The notes beneath the pieces were generated by a model. The model saw nothing but the letters and a program-made list of their open reading frames with translations, was not told where the DNA came from and did no database searches. Shown in pieces: positions 18,681 to 61,900 of a stretch of DNA of 64,000 bases. Both the position numbers and the translations under genes were made by a program. The stretch comes from Citrus sinensis (taxonomy: Eukaryota > Streptophyta > Magnoliopsida > Sapindales > Rutaceae): NCBI RefSeq assembly GCF_022201045.2, contig NC_068558.1, positions 2,108,001 to 2,172,000 of the forward strand, read 5' to 3'. Position 1 is the first letter of the stretch. Every line of letters starts with the position of its first letter.

Positions 18681-19030
18681 GGGTGGCTCTCGGTGTGTGG
18701 GTCACAGTTCAAGTCCCACAAAAGCATTGTGAGGGCTGTGAGTCCTTCCTTAATTGTAATATATAATTGAGTGGAGGCAATCTTCTCCCTTACTCATGTG
18801 AGTGGAGTAAACGTCCTTCGAATATTAGTGAGGGTAAAAATCAGTGTGAGTGGAGTAGACGTTCTTTGAATATTAATGAGGGTAAAAATTGAGTGGAGTA
18901 GACGTCTCTCAAAAATTGAGTGGAGTATACGTCTCTCGAATATTAGTGAGAATAAAAATTTGGACAGTGTTTTATAAGAATTATGTATACTAGTCTTAAT
19001 AATAGTCTCATGTAAATATGAGTTATAGTT
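18681..19030 (+). mobile_element. tRNA-derived SINE with an internal 27-48-bp tandem repeat
   Basis: The head reads GGGTGGCTCTCGGTGTGTGG and carries a canonical pol III B box, GTTCAAGTC, at 18707-18715; the A box is weaker. Downstream, a unit starting TGAGTGGAGTA(A/G)ACGT and ending GTAAAAAT is repeated about four times (near 18799, 18847, 18890 and 18917); the third copy is short. The 3' part (ACTAGTCTTAATAATAGTCT) recurs at 44.9 kb in a copy that is 5'-truncated and ends in poly(A). The combination of head, B box and a dispersed second copy supports a SINE. Its exact 3' end is not certain. Confidence 0.6.
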
Positions 19031-19413
19031 TAATTGGCATAATCAGTTAAAAACAAAAAACAAAACAAACGGATGGCTGGCCAGTCACCCTATAAATTAT
19101 AAAAGTTGTACCCTTATTGTGAGAAGAAGAAAAACTCCTGAACATTAATGCCAGTAAATGAATTATCTGTTGAAATATTGGGCTGCTCAGATACTCGTAT
19201 TGGAACAAAATGTTAACGGACACCGTCCTAAAAAGATATACAATATTAAAGAAAAGTGTTAAGGCTAAAAGAACAAGCTTAAAAACATTTTGGATTCGTC
19301 GTAACACTTGTATAACTAATGATCAACTTTCTAAAGATTGCTTATCATGACACTCATGATTATCAACATTGCTTCATAGCATTGTTCCAGACAAACCCTA
19401 ATTTATTTCCATC

Positions 19414-19710: not shown

Positions 19711-20300
19711 AGGGGTGGGCACTAATCAGTTCACTTCAATTTTAAAGTTTTTAAATCGATCGGTTTCATATTAATTGATTTAAGAAATTTAGTTTTTTTT
19801 TTTCTTTCATATTAACCAAAGTTTTAGATTTTTCACTTGAATTTAATTTTTTTAGTCTAGTTTAATTGTAATTACTAACCGTTTATGCTTTATACAAAAC
19901 ACTAATATAAAATAATTTTATAATAAACAAGTACTATATATATAGTAACACAATGAACCAATATATTTGTTCGGTTCATTTCATTCAAACCTATTAATTT
20001 AATATTAAAAATATTATAGATCACGAGCTTTAGGTTAATCAGGTTAGAAAAAATAAAAAATAAACTCAACCCGAACTTATAATCCAATTCGAATATAGTT
20101 CGGATCGAAATGAATCAAAATTTTGTGTTTCTGTATGCAGTATTATTCAAATAAAATCTAATCAAAATAGATACAATCAAAATACATTCTGATCGAATTG
20201 ACCAAAATTCAATCCATTCGAATTAAATTCTTCATTAGCATCCGATTTAAACCTAAAATTTTCGAATTAAATTGGGTTGGGTTGTATTATTTGCCCACCT
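19711..20300. mobile_element. Degenerate nonautonomous transposon with AGGGGTGGGCA-like ends
   Basis: The left end AGGGGTGGGCAC matches the complement of the right end TTGCCCACCT, and Asn/Ile-coding AT words (AATTCGAA, TTCGGTT) are spread through the 590-bp interior in both orientations. The shape and the GTGGGCA ends fit plant hAT-like MITEs. A target duplication was not found, so the borders are approximate. Confidence 0.45.
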
Positions 20301-44820: not shown

Positions 44821-45015
44821 AAAAACTTAAACACAATCTTTTTCTTTTTGAAATGTGAGTGGAATAGACGTTCTTCGAATTCTTCATAAGAATTGATGTA
44901 AACTAGTCTCAATAATAGTCTGATTTGTAAATATTAGTTGTAATATTATATAATATGACTTGTACTCTTGAGCAATAGTATCATGTAATAAAAAAAAAAA
45001 AACTTAAACGCAATC
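44821..45015 (+). mobile_element. 5'-truncated SINE copy with poly(A) tail and 18-bp target duplication
   Basis: The insert covers 44839-44997 and shares TGAGTGGA(A/G)TAGACGTTCTT and ACTAGTCT(C/T)AATAATAGTCT with the element at 18.7 kb, but has only one copy of the internal unit. It ends in a poly(A) run and is flanked by AAAAACTTAAACACAATC (44821-44838) and AAAAACTTAAACGCAATC (44998-45015), which differ at one base. Missing tRNA head, poly(A) tail and long target duplication are classic signs of LINE-driven retroposition with 5' truncation. Confidence 0.75.
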
Positions 45016-47109: not shown

Positions 47110-47712
47110 AATAAAGGCCAAAAAAAAATCTTTTTAATCGGTTTTGGTTCTTCTTTACCCCATAGAGATATTGAATATAAGGAATTTCTTTTTTTGCCAC
47201 TGTAATTTTGCAAGCAAAAGTTGAAAGGCCCCTCAAAAGTAAGTAAATAAATTCGAAACATATAAAATGCGGTTAATCCGGCTGTGAAAAAAGCTATTGT
47301 TGCGAAAATCGGCGAATACAACCAAGTATCATTAAGAATTTCATCCTTGGACCAAAAACAGGCGAGAGGTGGAATACCACAAAGAGAGATAATATATAAT
47401 AAAAAAGTAGTTTTTGTAATTGCTACGTGCTTTCTTAACCCACCTATCGTTTTTTTTTTTTAAAAAGCCTACCTATAAGAACTATATTCTGATTCTTATC
47501 TACAAAATCCAACAATAGCTTCCATTGAATGAATAATTGATCCGGATCCTAAAAACAACAAGGCTTTGGAATAGGCATGAGTAATCAAATGAAATAAAGC
47601 GGCTCGATAAGACCCCATACCTAGAGCTAACATCATATAACCCAATTGAGACATTGTAGAATAAGCTAAACCTCTCTTAATATCTTGTTGAGCAAGTACA
47701 ATGCCGTTGAAG
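47110..47712 (-). pseudogene. ndhF: Nuclear copy of plastid ndhF (NUPT), broken
   Basis: Two minus-strand stretches match the plastid NAD(P)H dehydrogenase subunit Ndh[21 protein letters not shown] and [20 protein letters not shown] from about 47680 down to 47500, then [18 protein letters not shown] and [18 protein letters not shown] from about 47390 down to 47210. Between them a small deletion shifts the frame after HSMEAIVGF, and a T/A-rich insert of about 20 bp (47448-47467) with a partial duplication of its flank interrupts the copy. Plastid similarity fades at both ends. In the plastid this gene encodes a membrane proton-pumping subunit of the NDH complex; here it is only a fragment of a long gene inside nuclear DNA and cannot be functional. 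Confidence 0.9.
47439..47476. repeat. Micro-insertion in the ndhF copy: T/A run between duplicated flanks
   Basis: CCCACCTAT (47439-47447) and CCTACCTAT (47468-47476) flank CG, a T-run and AAAAAG. The known plastid gene is uninterrupted at this place, so this is a true insertion. Confidence 0.65.
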
Positions 47713-47974
47713 GAATGAATAAATGTCAAAAATGTCATATATTATTACACATACTCCTTTTCATTTTTTCCCAATATTTTTTTTAAACATTTACTTATCC
47801 AATTGTATTTTACTACATAGTCTCTATGAATGATTTCGAGTTTTTAGCATCGGCTATGACATTTTTATATTTTCTAAGGTAAAACCACAAAATCCACTTT
47901 CGTCACCTCCTGATAGTCTCCAACTACCCACTGTTCCCATTCCCCCCACCCCCAATTATAGAGTGCTAGTTGAA

Positions 47975-48517
47975 AAGAATGTTATATATAATATTATTTA
48001 ATTTGTACGAAATCAATAAGTTATTGAAGTCAAATGAAGAATTTTTTGCAAGATTGAAATTTGTCAATAAACTTGATAAATTGGCCAAAGAATCACCTAA
48101 CACCTTGACAAATTGTAAAGGAGTAGGTGCAGTAGTGCCATTAATTTCCTATAAATAACGGGCAATTCTTCATTTGAAATCATCCCAAAAACTTGAGAGA
48201 ATCCCAAAAATTGAGAGAGAAACAATTCAATTGTAGAATTGTTAAGAGAGTGAGTAATTAGAGAGTTTGTAATTGAGAGATTTTTCCTTTCAAGTATGTG
48301 AGAGTACCGGGTGTATATGTGTTATGGGAAATGAGGTTTCTTTACTCAAATATTGTATTCTAATAATTGTATTACTAGTAATATAATTATTTTCTCTTAC
48401 TCTCGTGGACATAGATATATTGTCAAACTATATTATATTTTGTGTCCTTTATTTTCCGATAATTATTTGGTGCCCTTTATTCCGCATTCTGCGCACAACA
48501 TAAGTACCGAGCACATA
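47975..48517 (+). mobile_element. Copia-like LTR remnant
   Basis: A TATA box (TATAAATA, 48150-48157) is followed by a leader with GAGAGA-type words and the copia U5 signature CTCGTGGACATAG (about 48402) and TTTTGTGTCC (about 48436). No gag-pol or primer-binding site follows. Start (TGTTATATATAAT) and end (GCACAACA) are approximate and no target duplication was found. Confidence 0.45.
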
Positions 48518-48986
48518 TTTCATTCAACTACTTTGATCTTTTTGTAACCGAGATTTATTTGTACTTGCTATTTGGGAGGCTTGCCCAACTACGTTGATTT
48601 GTAAATAGCATTACTTCGTTTAAACGGGTACAATTAGTTGCATGTCAAAACATTAACTAGAAGCACTATTTGAGAACCCGAAAAATTTGCAAATAGATAT
48701 GGTAGTTGATCTTTCTATTCTAACAAAGGCAAATAAGATAACTTCAGCCAACCTCATATGCTTTTGCATGCTTTGATGTTTGTATATAGCTTAATAATTT
48801 CTTGTACGTGCATGCATTTTGATTTTAAATGTCATTATTTGTACGTTTTCATGCATCATATGTGCATGTGTCTGGCATTTTGCTGCAGTCTGAACAAATA
48901 CAGAAAATTTATAGCTGAAATTTTGTTTGGTCTCTTAGATGAAAAATCAATCAATGACCTCAAGCTTTTCGTTTTCTCCAATACTA

Positions 48987-49041
48987 GCTATAGATTCAAG
49001 TCATAATTAATTGAAAAAAAAAAAGCTATAGATTCAAGTCA
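48987..49041. repeat. Micro-insertion with 17-bp duplication and A-run
   Basis: GCTATAGATTCAAGTCA occurs at 48987-49003 and again at 49025-49041; the 21-bp insert between them is TAATTAATTG followed by eleven A. Confidence 0.85.
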
Positions 49042-50218
49042 ATATTTAAATGGAGTTTTTGATTTTCTTTTAATTTAATAAATATTAAACGGAAGAAACG
49101 ACCAATATTAATCCTAAACTCTTCTATTATTGGAGAAATTAAGCATTTTTCTCTCATCTTTTAAAACTCCCCTAATATTAATGATATTCCACATTTTCAC
49201 TAACTATCATTCTTTTCTCATTCAAAATTACTTAGTGTTAAAGGTAATTGTTTTTTTTTTTTTTGCAACTATATATTAGATTGTCTTAAATATTTCTTTC
49301 TTGAGAAAAAAAAATGCTTGAGAAAGTGAATTGGTTTATTTAACATTATAATGTCAGGGGTGATTTAAACTTGGTGCAAGAAGGAGGTTTATTCTATCAA
49401 TTTATAAGAATATTAAAGGATTTTAACGGAAAGTTCAATTAATTTCTGTGATTTTTTTTTTATTTGCTTTCATTTTCAACAAGCAAGAAGGGACCACAAA
49501 TTATTATGAATGCAACAAACGATGCCCAACTAGTGGCTTTTTCGTTTCCTCTTTGATAATTACAATAAAAAAACAATTGGGAAGTGGCGCATCCAATCAG
49601 GTGGGTATAAGTAATATCAGATTCAGATGCTTTTGTCATATGAAAATTAATGATTTTTTTTATAAAAAAAAAAAACTTAAAATCAGATTGCAACTGTTCG
49701 TATACAGCGGTCCCCAAATTCATGTCGTCCCTGTCAATTAATTATTTTCATGAAAAAGAAAAATCATGCAGATCCCAAAACCAACCGATTTGATGAAATT
49801 TTTCCAAACCAACCCAGTTCATTAACTCTCTCAATTACCACCAAAATAACCTAATTTTTTATTAATTATTCACGGACAAGACAAGTACATTGGACAAAAC
49901 TAAAGACGTACGAAAGCAGCATAAGGTACGTTTAATTTTGGAAGAATTATTTCTGCATAAAATCATTTTAAAAATATTGCTATGATTTATATGCACAGTC
50001 ACCATGCGAGTACAGAGGTTGTGCGTGATTTAGTAGGTCATATCTTTTAGGCAGAACATAAAATTGCTGGCAGTGAAATTAGGTAGTAATAAAAATTTGA
50101 CCGCGTGGCTACTTGTGTACACTGACATAGGCTCGCCAATAAATATATTTGTGACGAATAAAAGCATACTTAACCGAATTTAAATGGACTACCAACTGCC
50201 ATTAACCGAATCGTCATA

Positions 50219-50257
50219 GACTTATGGTTTTTTTTTTTTTTTTTTGAGGACTTATGG
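50219..50257. repeat. Micro-insertion with 9-bp duplication and T-run
   Basis: GACTTATGG at 50219-50227 and 50249-50257 flanks a 21-bp insert of eighteen T and GAG, that is CTC plus poly(A) on the other strand. Confidence 0.8.
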
Positions 50258-50588
50258 TAGTTATAGTAAGAGAATTCTCAATATTGATGATTTTTGTACA
50301 TCTTAACGAGTTCTAAAATGTATGCGAAGGGGACAAAGATTTATAAGTGAGGCACGAATGCTTGCACCCTTTACAGAAATTTGAGAATACTAATAACAAA
50401 AATATAGGCGGTAAAGGATATGTGATCCGGTTGGCACATCGGTTTCCTTGCAATAATGTGAGATCAGGTACATGAACTGGGAATCAATTTTTGTCTGTAT
50501 CGTTATCTCTGTATTTGAAACATTGAAAATATGTTTGTCAACAAATCTATCGACTTGCTGTTGTTTTAATTTTACAAGGCACCTATTT

Positions 50589-50925
50589 AGGGTCGGATTT
50601 CTCTAATATCAGTATATCACTAAGGGGAGCAGTCAAGTGAGTCCACTCTGAATATCTACTAGTGCAACTTAAAACCCTATGACTTTGTCCTAAACATATG
50701 TTAGCCCAACATTGAATATCACTAAGGGGAATAGCCAAACAAGTCCGATTTTATATCTACTAATCCGACCTAGAAGCCCATTAACTCGACTTGAAAATAT
50801 ACTAGCCCGACATTAAATTTCTCTGATGTGATTAAGGGGAACAATCAAGTAAGTCCCACCTGAAAATCTACTAATTCAATCTGAAAGCTTATTAGCTCGA
50901 CTAAAAATCTACTAGCTTGACATGA
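50589..50925. repeat. Degenerate tandem array of about 110-bp units
   Basis: Three diverged units share (G/A)ATATCACTAAGGGGA, (A/G)TCAAG(T)(A/G)AGTCC, ATCTACTA(A/G)T and (C)TAGCCCGACAT-like words. Downstream, TATTTAAGC and an A/G-rich transcript-like stretch (51070-51110) suggest that the array lies in the U3 of an unrecognised LTR. Confidence 0.6.
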
Positions 50926-51653
50926 AAACTTATTTATCAGGTCAAATGTGGCTTATTTTTTAGGGCAGTTAAATATTATCTTTTAAACCACCCTCAACTG
51001 ATAGGGACTACCTGCAACTGCAAAGAGAATGTGTTGAAATCAATAGAAGAACCACCCATGAGTAGGAGCTTATTTAAGCTAAAGAGAAAGAGGGAATCAA
51101 AGGAAGAGGTTAGCAAATTTATCTAAGGACTCCACAAGAGATGAACTATTTGACCATTCTCCTTTCTACTTTCTACATGATCCCCAACAAAAACACCATG
51201 AATTCCATTGTATTTTATTTTAGTTTTCTCAAATCGTTTTCCTTTCCATATAAATAAAAAAAATTAACCTACACATCTGAGGATATATGCCAAAACCTTC
51301 ACCTGCATATTCTAATTGTTTTTTGTGTGAAAATTGAGTTCAGAATAGTGTTTGAGTTAGGATTTGTGCTCTTGTCACTTGGAAAGCAAATTAAGCTATT
51401 GAGATCATTTTTCGGCGTTAATAGCACTGATTAATCATATTGACTTATATCGATATGCATGTCGAACCACTACATTATTAATCACAATGTTGGTTGAATG
51501 ACAACTAAGTTTCAAATTATAGACAACCAATCACTGTTTTCACTATGTAACTTTGATGGGTGACTCTAATTTCCTATTTAACAATAATAGTACTATCATA
51601 CTGATGATTGTAATGATGTGACTCTATGATTTTTCAATTCAAAGAAAATTACT

Positions 51654-51719
51654 ATTTTTGGCAGTTTGGTTGTATACAAAAACCACTTATTTCTACACAG
51701 AAACCAAGCTGCCAAAAAT
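51654..51719. repeat. Short hairpin
   Basis: ATTTTTGGCAGTTTGGTTG is mirrored by ACCAAGCTGCCAAAAAT with a 22-base loop. It could be a tiny MITE or a terminus pair. Confidence 0.6.
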
Positions 51720-52722
51720 ATTAATTTGCTTAGAAGTAGAAAATATTGAGAATCACATTATCGTGATCTTTAGTATAGACTTGTAATCCATTTTATGTGA
51801 AATTGCCACCAAATAAACTTGTAATCTATTTATTTGAAAATTATTATTTTTAGCCGTTTGGTGGTACATACAAATCTATGATTTTAGAGATTAATTTTAT
51901 TTTTTTTGGGGGATATATTCAAATACCACCAAAAATTTCCCCACATATTAATTCACCGTCAAGATTTTCTGACAATTATATTTTATCACTAATGTTTAGG
52001 CCGTTATCATCTTACCATCAAAACCTTAACTCTGTTAAAAATTTGTGAGATCACAAAGGTATTTGAGGAATTTTAAACTGAAGTTATTTTCCTAGTTTTT
52101 CTCTGGATTTTTTTTTCTAGACATCTGATTTGGGAGCCTTTTTTTTTTCAATTATTAGATTTTTATTATATTAAAATATCCCAAAATGAAATTCTAGGTT
52201 TTATGATAGAGTGATGCCAATTGAAAACTTTTAATGCATCTATAGACAAACTAATTCATGATATTCAATTAATTATGATTAAAAAAATTAATTAATTAAA
52301 TAATTAAGGTTGTTTATATTTGCAACACCAATGATAAAATGATAAAATTAATAATAATAAAAATGACATTCAGAAAAATTTGGATGCGTTTTAAAACATT
52401 AGGGGAGTTTTGCTCTTTTTCCCCTTATATATGTGTAGAAGATTTTGTTGAGATGTCTAGCTAATTGCATAATTTATCTCATTTTTGTGTACTATTGTTA
52501 GCGGACTATTTGCTGTCGTTAATTATTAGGAGGGGAATTAAATCATGTTACCAGAACTATGTATTCATGAGAATGAAGATAGTGGAATGCAAGCGTTTAG
52601 AAAATCATGATAATCTGTTAGGCATAAATTCTCAAGATTTAAAATGGACAAGAACCATTTTTATTACGTAATGAATATTGAACTCCACCATGAACTTAAT
52701 CAAGCTTATTCCAATTAAATGA
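51720..52722. other. Intergenic, AT-rich
   Basis: There is no gene; AGCCGTTTGGTGGTA at 51852 resembles the arm of the hairpin just upstream. Confidence 0.3.
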
Positions 52723-53290
52723 TAAATTGATAGGTTAAAAGCTCGTTTAGTCCATATATTTTGAAGTTAGTGTCCGTTTAGTCCCTATATTTTTAAAAAT
52801 ACCTCAAACCATCCCTACCATTAAATTATTTACACTTTTACCATTATCTTTTGTTCCTTTTAACTTATTTTTATAATATTGCCCTATTATAATCCTTTTT
52901 TTAGACATTATTAAAAAGAAAAAAATAAATTACCAGTTTAACACCAAAAAATAAAAAAATATATATTAATTTTTGTGGAACACACTCTTGAGTTAAAATA
53001 TTAATTTTTAGACATAAGTGAGCTTCCACAAAAATTAATATATACTTTTTTTGTTTTTATTTTATTTTTGAGTTTAATTTGATAATTTAATTTTTTATTA
53101 ATATCCAAAAAAGAAACATTATTGTAAAAGTGTAATATTGTAAAAACAAGTTAAAAATAATAAAAAATAATGGCATGAGTGTCAATATTTAGTAGCAGAG
53201 ATGCTTTGAGGTATTTTTAAAAACACAAGGACTAAATGGACACTAATCTCATAATATAGGGACTAAACAAACTTTTACCCTAAATTGATA
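52723..53290. mobile_element. Mutator-type MITE, family A copy 1
   Basis: The element spans 52733-53280 (548 bp) and is bounded by TAAATTGATA at 52723-52732 and 53281-53290 (9-10 bp). The ends pair as GGTTAAAAGCTCGTTTAGTC against GGGTAAAAGTTTGTTTAGTC, and pairing extends about 150 bp inward (TTTTAAAAATACCTCAAA is present in both arms). It carries no ORF. Confidence 0.85.
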
Positions 53291-54727
53291 CTTGCTGGGA
53301 GAATTCTACCCTCCATACTACTTTATTATGGACAAAAATTGTTGGACTTAAGATGAACAAGGTATCAGTCTTGACCCAATCACCCCGATGGTAGGCTGTT
53401 TTTAATTCCCAAACGCGGGCTTTTCAATTCAAACATTTGGGCCTTCTTTTAAATAGTAAACTAATGTAACGTTTGTTTTTTTATCTGAAATTTAAATAGA
53501 GCTTAATTAATCTGAATTCTTAATAGAGCTAAATGTTTGAATCTGAATTGTATATTTATTTTTTTTGTTTGAACCACTAAAAATAAATATTAGGTTGTCT
53601 GTTTTTTCAATTTAAAAAATCTGAAAACTAATATGTTTACATTTATGCCCTCACAAATTGTAAATGTTAAATAAATAATAAACATCTCAAGGAATATAAA
53701 TAAGATAATGAATTTTCATAACATAAATCATATTTAATTGAATACAACTCTTTAATATTGTAATTTATATATGTTGATTAATTTTATTATAATTTCAAAC
53801 TTTTTATATTTAGTAAAAAGTTAAAAAAATTAGCTTAATAACTTAACGACTTAATGGGTGAAAAGTTTCATTAAGTTGAAAAAATAAACAAACTTAATGA
53901 CTTAACTGAATAAAATTAAGTCAATTAAGCCATTAAGTAAAAAAAAAAAAAGACCTCTAAGTAATGATATTTGACTCTCTCGTTTTATCTCATTAATCCC
54001 CATTTCTTAAAATTAATTCATTTTTTTTCAAAATTACCTTTAGTTAGAAAACAAAAAAAAAAAAAGATTTTTTTTTCTCTCATATACTTTCTTTGTGTTT
54101 CTTTATCATCAATTTCACTAAGCATTTATTTTCATCACCACCATATCCATCATCATCATCACTACCATCACAACACATCTTGATCATCATTATTAATCAA
54201 AGACTAACTACAACGCATGAATTTTATTTTAATTTTTTTTATTAAAGCAACCACAAGAATACCCAATGAAAGAAATAAGTTCATTATTCAACAATTCAAA
54301 TAAACAAAATGTTTAATTGCTGAATCTATTACATGCCATCAGAATTATATCAACCTACTAAGAGTATTTAGCCCCGACTATACTTAGTTTTGCAAAAATT
54401 AACCCTTGCTTTGTATCTAAGCCGCCATGGTAGATCGTTTTGAAGTAGCTGAGAGCTTGGATCTCGTCTTGCCAAACTCTCACTGAGTCTCACTACGACG
54501 CTCGTGTTATTCCTTCAACTTGACTTTTTCTTTTTCCCCTTTTTTGACAATTTCAAGTCAGGATTTTTTTTAAGGGTTAACTTTCAAGAAAGTTATATGG
54601 AAGAGGAGAATTTCATGAGCTCGTGGGAAAAAAATGAAAAAAAATATATTTTTGTATTTTTAATAAGAATAAATATTAAAACAAATAGGATTAATTGAAA
54701 AATGGGGGCTGGTGAGACAAATCGAGG
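53291..54727. other. Intergenic; AT-rich transposon remnant at about 53460-53960
   Basis: GTTTGTTTTTTTATCTGA near 53470 is partly mirrored by the stretch ending in AAAAAATAAACAAAC near 53893, suggesting an old hAT-like MITE. CATC/CACCAT-rich low complexity lies at 54120-54180. There is no gene. Confidence 0.35.
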
Positions 54728-55065
54728 GGTAAAAATAGAGCTGGCAAAACGAGTCATCGGGTCATGTTCGTGTCGTGTCAGCTTCGTGTCGTGTCAAATT
54801 TAGGTCGACCAAACCCGACCCATTTAATAATCGCGTCCAAATATTGAGACCCAAACCCGACACGAAAAAATAATCGGGTTACCCAATAACCCGTTTAATA
54901 TCTATATATTGAACAAAAATTACATCAAATATTTACACACTATCATACATACGTATGTACATAAACACATACATACATAATTTATCAATATTATAAAATA
55001 TACATATCTACCAATATATTACACATTTACACTATTGAGATTTAATTATATATATATATATATCA

Positions 55066-55098
<33 letters not shown>

Positions 55099-55482
55099 TA
55101 TATCAATATTATAAAATATACATGTCTATCAATTTTTACACATTTACACTATTGAAGTTCTAAATGTATGTAAAATTTTATAAATAAAACACTGTGTTTA
55201 TATTCACCCTTTTAAAGAATAAAAAAAGAAAATCATCTCTAATATTTGAGTTTTAATTATAAGAATATGTAAATTATTTTAAAATAGAAAATATAATCGG
55301 GTAATTGATCGGGTAAATGGGTTAAGAATTTTAACCCAAACCTGACACGGAAAAAATCGTGTTGACCCGGACCCAACCCATTTAATAATCGTGTTAAATT
55401 TGACAACCCATACCCATTTATTTATGTCGTGTTCGTGTCGGATAATCGGGTCGTGTCAAATTTTGACAGCTCTAGGTAAAAA
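54728..55482. mobile_element. hAT MITE with 8-bp target duplication
   Basis: The element spans 54736-55474 (739 bp). The 8-bp duplication GGTAAAAA is present at 54728-54735 and 55475-55482. The ends pair as TAGAGCTGGCAAAAC against TAGAGCTGTCAAAATTTGAC. The arms are built from GTGTCGTGTC, CGGGTT and AACCCGACCC words in opposite orientation, and the centre has long (TA)n runs (55039-55092). The 8-bp duplication identifies the hAT superfamily. Confidence 0.9.
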
Positions 55483-55560
55483 GATCACTAGTCTAGTAAA
55501 ACTCTTGGGCCTGACTCATTTTACACGGGCGTTGTCCGTTTAATAAGCTTTTGTTAGAAC

Positions 55561-55573
55561 AAAAGCCTACCTT

Positions 55574-55606
<33 letters not shown>

Positions 55607-55612
55607 CTACCT
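55561..55612. repeat. Micro-insertion with 12-bp duplication and A-run
   Basis: AAAAGCCTACCT at 55561-55572 and 55601-55612 flanks a 28-bp insert of TTCTTT and an A-run; some A residues may belong to either. Confidence 0.75.
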
Positions 55613-57600
55613 GTTTTATAATAATGGCATTTGGCAAGTCGTTCATATAGTTATTTAACAGTCGACATGTGATTTATATATTAAGTTACCGGCCTACATG
55701 TCTTCTCATTTGTTTGGGGGAGAAAAAAAAAAAGCAACAACTATATATTAGCAGGTGGAAGTATTATTATGAAAATAGCATGTCGGTCATACATCATTTT
55801 GAATTTCTACTTTTATCTTTAAAAGGGAAAAATACATATAATTAGAAGGGAATACCACATTGACATACTTGTCCCAATCCCAAATTTAGAGCTCAACCGA
55901 AGCCAAATTTTAAAAGTTTTGTTATTTGTATGGTATAACAAATATATTTTTTCAAATTAGAAGGAAAATCAAATATATTTTTTCAAATTCAAGACTCGAG
56001 TTTTGAATTAATGGGAGCTTCTTGTTTTGCTTTACTTTCTTCAGTTAATTGTTTCAATCATTTTAAATTATATAAACACACGCGCACGCACACACACAAT
56101 AGCTAGCATGCAGGTCGTAGTCTTGCCGGGGAGCATGAATGTTTCAATATATGCATGAAACGTACGTCGTTCCAGTAGATTCCCGCAAACTCTAGTGGAA
56201 TCGAAAACAAGATTTGAGAGATCCAATGTTCTTAGATTGTCAGGCACAACGTTACCAAGTTGCAATTTAGAATTATTGCAATTTGTAATCATGTTTATTC
56301 AATGCTAATTCTAGTTATAAATATAATGCGATTGATCATCTTGATTTATAACGTTCTGACTTATTAATTTAAAATAATCCCAACAATTAATTAATTAAGT
56401 TGTATGACATAGAACATGATCTTTGCGCCTTTTTAGGAGCTGCCAAGTATCATAAACAAAGTTATTGCCTTTACTCGTGATAATAACTTAAGTTATAAGT
56501 GTCTAATTTGTGCTTATAGTATACTTGTTGCGCCTTTTTAATAAACTGTTAAGTATTATAAACAAAGTTATTGTATTTACTCCTAATAATAACTTGAGCT
56601 ATATGTGTTTATTTTGTGCTCATAATATATTATTTGAGGCTTATGTAAATACGAATGTATATGTTTATTATAAGTCGTAAACAATCAGTGAATTATTTTC
56701 AAATTCTACTATTTTTAGGCCCATATTCACCTGTGGAAATTAGGGAAAGTAATTTCTTTTCATATTTTTTTTCAAACTTTGAATTTAAGGTTTTTTTTTT
56801 TCTTATTTCAGTTATTAGAAATTTATTCTAGTAAAATAATTTGCATATCAGAGCTGTCGTCAAAAAATGAAATTCAAACCCTATTCGTGAGACTGTTGAT
56901 TGAATTAAACAAAATTTCTCTTTGAAAATTTGTACGTGTGTTATTTCTTGCTTCAGTTTTGCGTCATTGTAGCAAGTTGCAATTGGAACGTCCCTTGCTA
57001 AATCAACCCTACAGAGTAACTCCATGCTCAACCATAGGAGGATTCGATACGAACATAAACGTTTTGCACATAAGCAGAATAACAAGTGAGTGAGCCTGGA
57101 AACAGTGATGGAGCCACATGGAGCACGCAGCGCAGTTACCCCCCAAGTCTTAACTTTTTTAGAATATATTTTTTTTAAATTTAACTAATTTTATTTTTCT
57201 TCAATAAAATTTTTAACGTATCCCTACTGATTTTGAATTATATATAAAAATGTAGGCTCAAAATTAAATTATGATCATTAAAATCACTTTAAATAAGTAT
57301 GTCAAATCCAAAATTATTGAATAACATTTTGAGGGAAATTAAATTCTTTAGGAAATTAAATTTGCCCTCAATTTGAATCATGGCTACTAGAAACTTGTCT
57401 CTTTAAATCAAAAGATCTTATGGTGTATTTATCAATTGGTAATCGGAATAGGTTAGAATAAGAATAGGGAATGAGAATTAAAAAATATATTTTTTTGTCT
57501 TAGGGATCGGAATCAACATAAGTTGTATTGATATTAATGTGTTTACTTTATCTTAGAATTGAAATGTATTGTTACAAGTTAATAATAATAATAATAAAAA
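55613..57600. other. Intergenic, AT-rich
   Basis: There is no supported gene. A minus-strand ORF at 56068-56292 contains NLRTLDLSNLVF, which resembles a leucine-rich repeat but has no second repeat. A two-fold repeat around CGCCTTTTTA (56428 and 56530) is a local duplication of about 100 bp. GTGATGGAGCCACATGG at 57103 looks like the end of a transposon. Confidence 0.3.
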
Positions 57601-58139
57601 GAGTAAATGCTTATTTAGTCCCTATATTTAAAAAATACCCGAAGACACTGTTGTTGTTAAATATGTTACATTCCTACACTTACTTTTTTTTAAAGAATAA
57701 TACCCTTTTAATGATATTCTTAGGGATATTTATAAACAAAATGATAACTTGTCAAATTAATCCTTTTATGATTAATTTGGTAAATTAATTTTTTTAACAA
57801 AATAATTTATCATAAGATTGTTATAAGGATTTTAAATATTTCTTTAAGTTGACTGATATTATATTTATTTATAAATAATTATTAATAAGATTATTGCATA
57901 TGTATATAAAAATACCAATTCTTTGACACTAATATTTTTTGATCAATTTGTTAATTAAATTTTTTCACAGATAAATTAATTAATGTTAATAGTTAGAAGA
58001 GTATTATCATAAAAGGAAAGAAAAGGTAAGGGTAAGAATGTAACATATTTAACTTAGGGATATTTTGAGATATTTTTTAAAATATAAAGACTAAACAGAC
58101 ACTTAAGTCAAAATATTGGGGCTAAACGAGCATTTACCC
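57601..58139. mobile_element. Mutator-type MITE, family A copy 2
   Basis: The ends pair as GAGTAAATGCTTATTTAGTC against GGGTAAATGCTCGTTTAGCC; AATATGTTACATTC and GAATGTAACATATT pair further in. It shares TTTAGTCCCTATATTT and the overall plan with the element at 52733, so both belong to one family. The target duplication has decayed into an A/T-rich flank. It seems inserted into an older AT-rich element whose halves lie on either side (about 57420-57600 and 58140-58470). Confidence 0.75.
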
Positions 58140-59254
58140 AATAATGAAGATAAATAATAATATTGATAATAATGATGAAGATGATTTTATTATTATTAAC
58201 AAATACAAGAATAAGAATAATATGATAATATTTTAATTGAAGATAAAAATGAAATTATGAAATTTGTGTGGGTAAAATGAGGAGTTCAAGTAATGGAAAC
58301 TTAGTTCCTAATTCCCATGGGAATCTAAGTTTCCATTGCCTAATCCCAAAAATATGTGAATTCCACATATTTGATTCTCATTTTTATTTTTATTTTAACA
58401 AGTGAATACCATTAATCATTTTCATTTTAAATTCTAATACTCCAATTCCATAAGGAAACGCAGCATTGGAGTTTCAGTTTGTTTCCACATTCTTTGATCG
58501 ATGGAGTCATGACTCATTTATAATTTATTAATGCCTTTTCAACTCTTTGCTTTCGCTGTTCAGCAGGTAGCTAGTAGCTCACTCATCCATTTTAACCACA
58601 GAGGCCAAACTAACGTCTCGTAAACTAATATAGGATATAATATCTCAATTAATAGAGTACTGAGCACAAGACTAGGATTAATATATATCATGTTTAAGCT
58701 TAATTGATTTATTTTTAATTATTTTGTCCCTATAGTTTGATAGTGTGAAATTGTTTAAAATTGTTTCATACTTGCCCACATGTAGGATATTAAGACTCTT
58801 GCTTGCATTATTATTATTGAACGAAAACTACTCTAGTTGTCAGTGAATATTCTTGATAGTTGTGAAAAATAAGTGGTATTACTAAAGTTGCGGGTGTTTA
58901 TTAGCGAATAATTTGGCTGCTAAACTTCTGCAGCATAGTTACCAAAATGTAAGTAAACTCACTGAATCCAGATCAACTGCGACCATTTGATTCGTTGAAG
59001 CTGCTTATGAGGGAGATAATCCCACGTCAACTCATATAAATTTTTGGGGTAAGTATATAACTAAAGTTTGAGATCATGAACGAACTTTTCAGTATAAATA
59101 GTGTCTTCCTATAGTTTTTTCATTTTGTTTTATTGATACATGCACTACTTTTAGGGGAAAGATTACTAAAGGTATACACAAGGGCTACTAAATATCTGCA
59201 TGTTTTTAAATTAAGTGTATTTAGAAATTAATTGTGATTATATAGATACATACT

Positions 59255-59289
59255 AGGTAATTCTTTAAAAAAAAGAAGAAGGTAATTCT
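59255..59289. repeat. Micro-insertion with 10-bp duplication and A-run
   Basis: AGGTAATTCT at 59255-59264 and 59280-59289 flanks TTAAAAAAAAGAAGA (15 bp). Confidence 0.75.
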
Positions 59290-59970: not shown

Positions 59971-61900
59971 TAATTAATCTTCTCAAGAATCTTAGTCTCG
60001 CGTCATGCTCACGATTCATTATTGTTTTTATCATCAGCCATGTATCAGCTTGGAGTCACCCACAGTCGATGGAGCCTCTGATGTTTTCTAATAATTAATT
60101 TCTAGAAATTGAGTAATGAATTAGACTAGTGTTTATTAATTCTCCTGTGGAAAACCCTAGCTCCATGAAATGTTCGTAGTTCGAGGAAACACTTTTCTTG
60201 GCGCATCTAATGAATCGAATAGGCTTTGAAACATAGTAAGCGAAGCCAATAAATTAATTTATTATTCTGAGTGTATGTAAAGAATAAAAGAAAATCAAAC
60301 TAGCGAAAATGATTTCATGAATAAATCGTGTTTTTTAAACTTCAGATGCCTGGGAGAGTCAATTAATGGGGCTTGAAGATAAAAGGTTTTGACATATTAT
60401 CATGATTGTCGATCAATAGCTTATCTCCATTTCTCATAAGCACGTCTTTATAAAAATCAATCATGTTAAGGCCGTCTTTATGATTGACTAACAAAATTAG
60501 ATCAGTCTCACACTCACGTGAAAACAAATATTTCCGCATGCCATGTTAACTTGCCAACTCGTTAATTTGTTTTGTTGTTTGAAATATTTAGACTCTGACG
60601 AGCCAGTGTGGTACCATAAAAAAAGGTCACACGCAGAGGTACTATACGTATATTATGATACATAGAATTTGGAGAATTTTAAATTAAGTAATAATTGTTG
60701 TCATGTCAATAATATGATTAAAAAACATAAAGGAAAAAGAAGGGAAGGAAAAAAAAAATTTAGCTATCCTTCTAATTCTATTGAGTAATGGAAGAATCAA
60801 TAATGACATACACTATGACGTTATAACATAAAAATTGTAAATCTAGAGGAGCCAAGCGTAAAAATTATGTCAAAATGGGTTATATATATATATATTTCAT
60901 CTAAGACCTCTGTCTTCTTTAAATTATATTCATCCTGACCTAAACGTAGTACTAGTACCACTCTGCTTCCATATGTGCTTGATAGGAATGACAGAAATTG
61001 GAGAGATGGAAATATATAGATAAATAAATGTGGGCTAAGCTCTTTCCTTTTCCTTTCTATTTTCTATGGATCATGATCTTCTTATGATCTAGGCATATCT
61101 TTATTTTGAAGGATCCTTGAACGAGTGTGTATTTTTATTTATATATGATCAAAATTTACTTTTATATTATAGGAAAAATCTTGAATACTTGTAAAGCATT
61201 ACTCTTTTTTCATTCACTTTTTGACATGTCTATACTTTAACTAATCATAATAATAACATGCAAACACACATGCCAAGCATTAAAAAGAAAAAAATAAAGA
61301 GTAATACTCCAGGAGCACCATTGTATTCCTAATTATCAACTACCAACTGCAGTAACCATCACTGCTCAATCAAAGGAGAACCTGGTCCATTTTCTACAAA
61401 TTTGGGGGACATTTAAAGATAGAGGTGGGGTTGAAAATACGATCCTTGCTTTTTTTTTAACCACGATCTCTCTATTTTATTTTTTCACATGAATAAAGTT
61501 GTATCACATGGATCAAGTTGCAAAAAGTTGATTTGTACACGTAATCTATTTTGGAATATGTAGAATTATTAAAAAAAATTCTCAGTTTGGAATATTAGAA
61601 TTATTAAAAGAAAATTTCTCGATTTGGAAAAAAAAAATGTAATCGAACGGGATCCCATATGAATACTTATAAACTTCTACTCCAATTGGAATTAGCTTCT
61701 GTATGTACCATCAATTATGCCATCCCCTACGTTATTTGTGGTGCAATTTTTCTTTGTTACTACCACATGCAACAATGAATCCATAACGATGAGTTCAAAT
61801 CAAAGGATTTTTGACCAGGTCGTTATCAAATGGGAAATAGCCATAAAATAAAACTGAGATTTACATTGAAGCCAAAAATAGTAATCAATTATCAGTCAAA

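Follow-up and report, generated by a model that had tools for sequence, protein, structure and literature searches.

A 64,000-nucleotide stretch of the Citrus sinensis genome (contig C3, positions 2108001–2172000; hereafter the window) contains five short inserts made almost wholly of A or T, each lying between the two copies of a short direct repeat, at positions 47439, 48987, 50219, 55561, and 59255 of the window (loci 1–5, respectively). Taken as a group, loci 2–4 are probably the product of target-primed reverse transcription, driven by a long interspersed nuclear element (LINE), that broke off within the poly(A) tail or just beyond it. The original prediction had proposed such LINE-driven, tail-only retroposition for all five loci. 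The proposal is supported for loci 2–4, where it draws on the duplications, the polarity of the A-run within them, the recurrence of the pattern outside the window, a related site (L063) holding the 3′ end of a short interspersed nuclear element (SINE), and the A-runs at LINE 3′ ends; loci 1 and 5 are without the clean geometry. Locus 5 is possibly a further tail-only insertion like loci 2–4.

All five features were found where the original prediction had placed them, and the repeats that it gave as 9–17 bp proved exact at loci 2–5 (9–10 bp at locus 5) and imperfect at locus 1. The best case is locus 2 (48987–49041, plus strand), in which the duplication GCTATAGATTCAAGTCA (48987–49003) is followed by the body TAATTAATTG (49004–49013), an A11 run (49014–49024), and the second copy (49025–49041); the exact repeat is 17 bp, or 18 bp counting one A from the run. 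Locus 3 (50219–50258) reads on the minus strand and consists of a copy of ACCATAAGTC (50258–50249), the body CTC, an A18 run (50245–50228), and copy 2 (50228–50219), giving an exact repeat of 9 bp, or 10 bp with the one A common to the run and copy 2. At locus 4 (55561–55612, plus strand), the duplication AAAAGCCTACCT (55561–55572) is followed by TTCTTT (55573–55578), an A26 run (55579–55604), and copy 2 (55601–55612), and the exact repeat is 12 bp (AAAA plus 8 bp). Locus 5 (59255–59289, plus strand) is weak; AGGTAATTCT (59255–59264) and its second copy (59280–59289) enclose the A-rich spacer TTAAAAAAAAGAAGA, with GAAGA separating the A-run from copy 2. On the strand carrying the As (A-strand), the run abuts copy 2 at loci 2–4 and at neither of the other two. 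Target-primed reverse transcription is expected to leave duplications of ∼7–20 bp, a range that includes those of loci 2–4 (17, 9, and 12 bp) and of locus 5.

The frequency of this pattern in the window was compared with that in 60 first-order Markov sequences in which every A/T run was left in place, using a criterion close to the original description (repeat of at least 9 bp; spacer of 10–32 bp containing an A/T run of at least 8). Six sites were found in the window, against a mean of 0.3 and a maximum of 2 in the Markov sequences. Four of the six were sites already predicted; the others were at 19764, with the wrong polarity, and at 61561, inside a tandem array.

Copying of a poly(A) tail into a target necessarily places the run, on the A-strand, directly before the second copy. 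The strict geometry used here, read on the A-strand, required a match of at least 8 non-run bases beginning directly after the run, with the end of the first copy no more than 15 bp ahead of it; in the mirror geometry, the A-run abuts copy 1 instead. For the swapped-flank control, right flanks were exchanged among runs in 1000 rounds, and a run could receive its own flank, which makes the swapped-flank counts slightly conservative. A/T runs of at least 8 numbered 90 in the window and 157 in 18 nuclear sample stretches (180 kb in total; one, L021, adjoins the window), or 247 combined. Of the genome's 1500 exact A18 runs, the first 100 listed, all on contig C1 (L032–L131), formed the A18 set; samples and A18 set together gave 257 runs outside the window and, with it, 347.

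Strict geometry was observed at 3 of the 90 runs in the window against a swapped mean of 0.211 (3 was reached in 1 of 1000 swaps), at 2 of the 157 sample runs (0.272 swapped; 27/1000), and at 1 of 100 in the A18 set (0.022 swapped; 22/1000), with no mirror site in any of these sets. Pooled, the runs outside the window gave 3 of 257 against 0.235 (1/1000), and the first strict count, over the 247 runs of window and samples, had been 5 against 0.4 expected, with the mirror again at 0. The cleanest check is the A18 set at the 15-bp body, since this set was fetched only after the geometry had been fixed. When bodies of up to 35 bp were allowed, 7 of the 257 outside runs qualified (0.559 swapped; 0/1000), with 2 mirror sites (0.659 swapped); the A18 set alone gave 3 of 100 (0.104 swapped) and 1 mirror site (0.133 swapped), and the window 3 and 1. 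Extending the limit to 50 bp left the A18 set at 3 of 100 (0.19 swapped) and 1 mirror site, a T-rich 8-mer (0.22 swapped). Summed over all sets at the 15-bp limit, the A-run lies at copy 2 in six sites and at copy 1 in none.

Longer insertions with the same arrangement are present in the genome. The original prediction included a truncated SINE with an 18-bp duplication and poly(A), and this element is real: at 44821–45015 (plus strand), the duplication AAAAACTTAAACACAATC (44821–44838), whose first copy begins AAAAA and is preceded by TTT, is followed by a 151-bp body (44839–44989), an A13 run (44990–45002), and copy 2 (44998–45015) with one mismatch. Its label as a SINE was doubted until a longer copy of the family with a tRNA-like head emerged at ∼18684–19050 (plus strand; ends approximate, by eye), carrying GTTCAAGTCCC, which we take to be a box-B-like motif. 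A genome search for this family gave 441 first-look candidates, of which 40 were scored. In the A18 set, L063 consists of AAGAGTGACCCAACAAA, a 28-bp body, A18, and the identical 17 bp. The last 24 bp of this body occur at 18 places in the genome, namely L063 itself, one place with 2 mismatches, and sixteen places with 3, against 0 for a reversed-pattern control, and form the 3′ end of a repeated SINE family with longer copies in L007, L156, and L157. The L156 copy aligns with that in L007 over 223 bp and with that in L157 over 144 bp, and its internal GGTTCGAG presumably corresponds to a SINE box B; by eye, the L007 copy is flanked by TTTATTATTGAATA and TTTATTATCGAATA. Members of this SINE-like family (L007:2209–2431, L156, L157, and L063) vary widely in length and end in CCCTCCC(C/T)AAGATACCTCGTGGTT plus an A-rich tail.

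Two further sites in the A18 set are L067, where a 17-bp duplication (AAAAGAAGAAAGCTTTT) encloses 7 bp and A18, and L115, where a 9-bp duplication encloses 31 bp and A18. Bodies of 223, 151, 28, 10, 7, 6, and 3 bp thus precede A-runs within one genome. The predicted series from long to nearly empty copies is borne out to the extent that such copies exist; they are spread across families, and the shortest can be assigned to none. Among the flanks of the A18 set, those of L068 and L075 are related, with L090 partly so, L112 belongs to the 44821 SINE family, and the remaining matches are short. When 800 bp upstream of the first 20 A18 runs was searched, 16 had no match of at least 7 bp, so that most of those runs are not recognizable retroposon tails; two had 9-bp matches, 242 and 309 bp away, against 0.27 expected for matches of at least 9 bp.

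The same genome holds the LINE machinery and elements with poly(A) tails. A search with PF13966, used as a plant LINE marker, yielded 1174 candidates; 150 were scored, giving 150 matches in open frames of up to 2115 amino acids, and none of 14 control genomes had a match. In four LINEs examined over 2 kb downstream of the domain (frames of 1384, 1367, 1398, and 1398 amino acids), the first A-run of at least 7 was A13–A16 and lay at 770–785 bp in all four. L160 and L161 carry the same 50 bp before the A-run and diverge after it, as expected of the end of an element. The TTCTTT that precedes the A-run of locus 4 resembles one LINE end (...CTTTCTTTC-A14), although six bases are no proof; comparing LINE 3′-end letters with the bases before A-runs gave two flanks ending in TTTC (L087; L014:7656–7663) and nothing convincing. 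L1-type endonucleases cut at TT/AAAA-like sites. The duplications at 48987, 50219, 55561, L014 (3109–3145), L063, L067, and the 44821 SINE start with AAAA or more in 4 of 7 cases and with AA in one, which leans toward an L1-type nick and is no proof, the sites being too few and slippage being able to begin at such starts too.

In the mechanism that we favor for loci 2–4, a LINE endonuclease would nick one target strand, and the poly(A) tail of an RNA, whether LINE, SINE, or messenger, would anneal at the nick. Reverse transcription would copy the tail and no more than a few bases beyond it before the complex stopped or released. Repair of the staggered break would then duplicate 9–18 bp of target, giving the order target copy, 3–10 bp, A-run, target copy. 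The body was presumably never copied rather than deleted later. In three of the five inserts, a T tract stands ahead of the A-run (T12A5 at 47439, TTCTTT-A26 at 55561, and TTT-A8 at 59255). It is a doubtful further step to explain these by twin priming, with the two strands of the target both priming on one poly(A) tail, and to see in tail-only events a standing source of new A-run microsatellites in plant genomes.

The main rival is break repair combined with slippage, in which repair of a double-strand break or of paired nicks duplicates 9–18 bp and adds a short stretch of filler; polymerase slippage then lengthens an A tract that lies in this filler or opens the copy, and no reverse transcription is required. 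We consider this unlikely for loci 2–4, although several observations speak for it. Plant break repair is known to produce tandem duplications with fillers, and duplications resembling these with other fillers are common in the DNA analyzed here: 46 of 52 isolated short direct repeats have fillers without an A/T run of at least 8. Slippage could begin at the AAAA starts of three near-empty cases (55561, L014, and L067), and the sole locus with empty homologues, locus 1, has no clean tail. However, break repair predicts no polarity, and six sites to none at the 15-bp limit and 10 to 3 at the 35-bp limit were found, in small numbers. It likewise expects no A-run and no retroposon 3′ end, whereas L063 carries a recognizable SINE 3′ end ahead of its A-run, and A-run spacers were in excess among the 52 repeats (repeats of at least 10 bp, spacer of 8–32 bp; 6 of 52 against 1.2 expected, p = 0.0014), though in the window only.

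Later deletion of the bodies of longer retroposon copies, with the duplication and tail remaining, would yield an identical present-day anatomy, and truncated copies with 151-bp and 28-bp bodies do exist. Every such deletion would have had to begin no more than 10 bp past the inner edge of copy 1 and to stop at the tail, and we regard this explanation as very unlikely. Chance pairing of flanks is more improbable still. A-runs are frequent in AT-rich DNA, as the 90 runs in the window illustrate, and some will have matching flanks: matches of at least 7 bp were observed at 54 of the 247 runs, of which ∼27 are predicted by swapped flanks. At the more demanding thresholds, the run-keeping Markov sequences (0.3 against 6) and the swapped flanks (0.21 against 3) disfavor chance for loci 2–4 as a group, though not for locus 5.

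Several points weigh against target-primed reverse transcription as the source of loci 2–4. Two of the five loci, 47439 and 59255, fail the strict geometry, and the bodies of the other three (TAATTAATTG, CTC, and TTCTTT; 3–10 bp) are too short to be traced to a source. The strict geometry was fixed after the window and sample cases were known, and the 35-bp limit after the first result from the A18 set. Numbers are small throughout the polarity counts, and mirror sites do occur, as seen in the 10 forward and 3 mirror sites among 347 runs at the 35-bp limit. The looser test on isolated repeats gave 5 of 17 in the window and no excess outside it (1 of 35 against ∼0.8 expected), so that the excess outside the window depends on the strict geometry. 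Adding the weaker sites L018 and L115, both of which start with T, lowers the AAAA starts to 4 of 9, and TT stands ahead of the As only at the 44821 SINE. Finally, empty sites were found for locus 1 alone, the least LINE-like of the five. The flanks of loci 2, 3, and 5 match only themselves in their own genome, with no paralogous empty site (locus 2 was queried with 501 bp). At locus 4, the site is covered by itself only among the 40 scored of 319 candidates, the other 39 reaching 55400–55482 at most. Within this assembly, three empty homologues were seen for 47439 and none for loci 2–5. L063 and L067 each have a single match in the genome, namely themselves, and no empty site.

Locus 1 (47439–47476, no strand assigned) consists of CCCACCTAT (47439–47447), CGT12A5G (47448–47467), and CCTACCTAT (47468–47476), the two repeat copies matching at 8 of 9 positions with ACCTAT exact. 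Its host is a plastid-like fragment of 566 bp in the nuclear genome (47131–47696, plus strand), which we take to be part of ndhF. The assembly comprises 299.7 Mb in 11 contigs, nine large and two small; the two small contigs are presumably mitochondrial and plastid, and C11, which contains plastid-like sequence, served as the reference for this locus. Relative to C11, the locus carries a 29-bp insertion, which is also missing from both aligned copies on contig C8, making three homologues without it; in the alignment, TTAACCC-ACCCATAAG of C11 stands opposite TTAACCCACCTATCG-T12-A5-GCCTACCTATAAG of the window. Insertion is therefore demonstrated at locus 1, and at this locus alone among the five; the A-run meets neither copy cleanly, and the insertion may or may not reflect retroposition. 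ACCTAT stands in both copies against ACCCAT in C11, and the change therefore probably preceded the duplication.

The host fragment is the same as C11 except at ∼47388–47510, where 19 substitutions, a 2-bp deletion, and the 29-bp insertion are concentrated. All 19 counted substitutions (C>T or G>A in 11 cases) fall within 47388–47503, with none in the flanks of the 566-bp match. This sharp mosaic perhaps arose when the assembly was over-polished with plastid reads, or perhaps by clustered mutation or conversion. The sequence AAAAGCCTACCT is common to locus 1 (47463–47474) and locus 4 (55561–55612), standing at the end of the A-run in both, through chance or a common source. One part of C11 was unusable, the segment C11:100001–110000 (L011) being N throughout.

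Among known systems, loci 2–4 resemble 5′-truncated L1 or LINE copies and processed pseudogenes in the duplication, the 3′ A-run beside copy 2, and the 5′ loss; those copies retain an identifiable body, whereas loci 2–4 retain 3–10 bp. The truncated SINEs of the same genome (44821–45015 and L063) are alike in duplication, polarity, and tail and keep 151 and 24 bp of SINE, respectively. Plant break-repair duplications with filler share only the short direct repeat and small insert. The closest counterparts are in human genetics. PMC3219598 cites a human survey in which 3 of 48 events were simple poly(A) insertions, and it reports a further poly(T) insertion, in NF1 exon 25, which its authors read as perhaps an Alu, L1, or processed pseudogene that had been severely truncated. 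The likeness lies in an A/T tract put in by L1 machinery, with duplications of 6–17 bp in all but one insertion of that study, compared with 9–18 bp here. The human cases are disease mutations, and the retrotransposons of that study have tails of 60–178 bp, whereas the runs here are A11–A26 in a plant assembly. The original prediction had supposed such insertions to be without a name; on the wording of this source they are simple poly(A) insertions, and the supposition holds at most for plants. On the favored reading, loci 2–4 are plant insertions of the same kind as the human ones. Searches of titles and the starts of abstracts, in a collection with few subscription papers, listed no plant example of a tail-only insertion, which does not show that none has been published.

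Should tail-only insertions prove a regular outcome of LINE activity in plants, repeat annotation based on element bodies would miss them, and they would serve as clean insertion markers and as a record of how often reverse transcription fails early. They would also account for some A-run birth, a share that looks small, since only one run of the A18 set qualifies at the 15-bp limit. Exact A18 runs differ from runs of at least 8 in their neighboring bases: C directly precedes 51 of 100 A18 runs versus 57 of 247 runs of at least 8, and T directly follows 29 of 100 versus 132 of 247. Elsewhere in the window, a high-copy repeat (40 scored of 319 first-look candidates) ends at 55400–55482, ∼80 bp before locus 4, and parts of it recur at 54761–54836. 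The segment 56423–56641 consists of two tandem copies of a 106-bp unit that are ∼80% alike.

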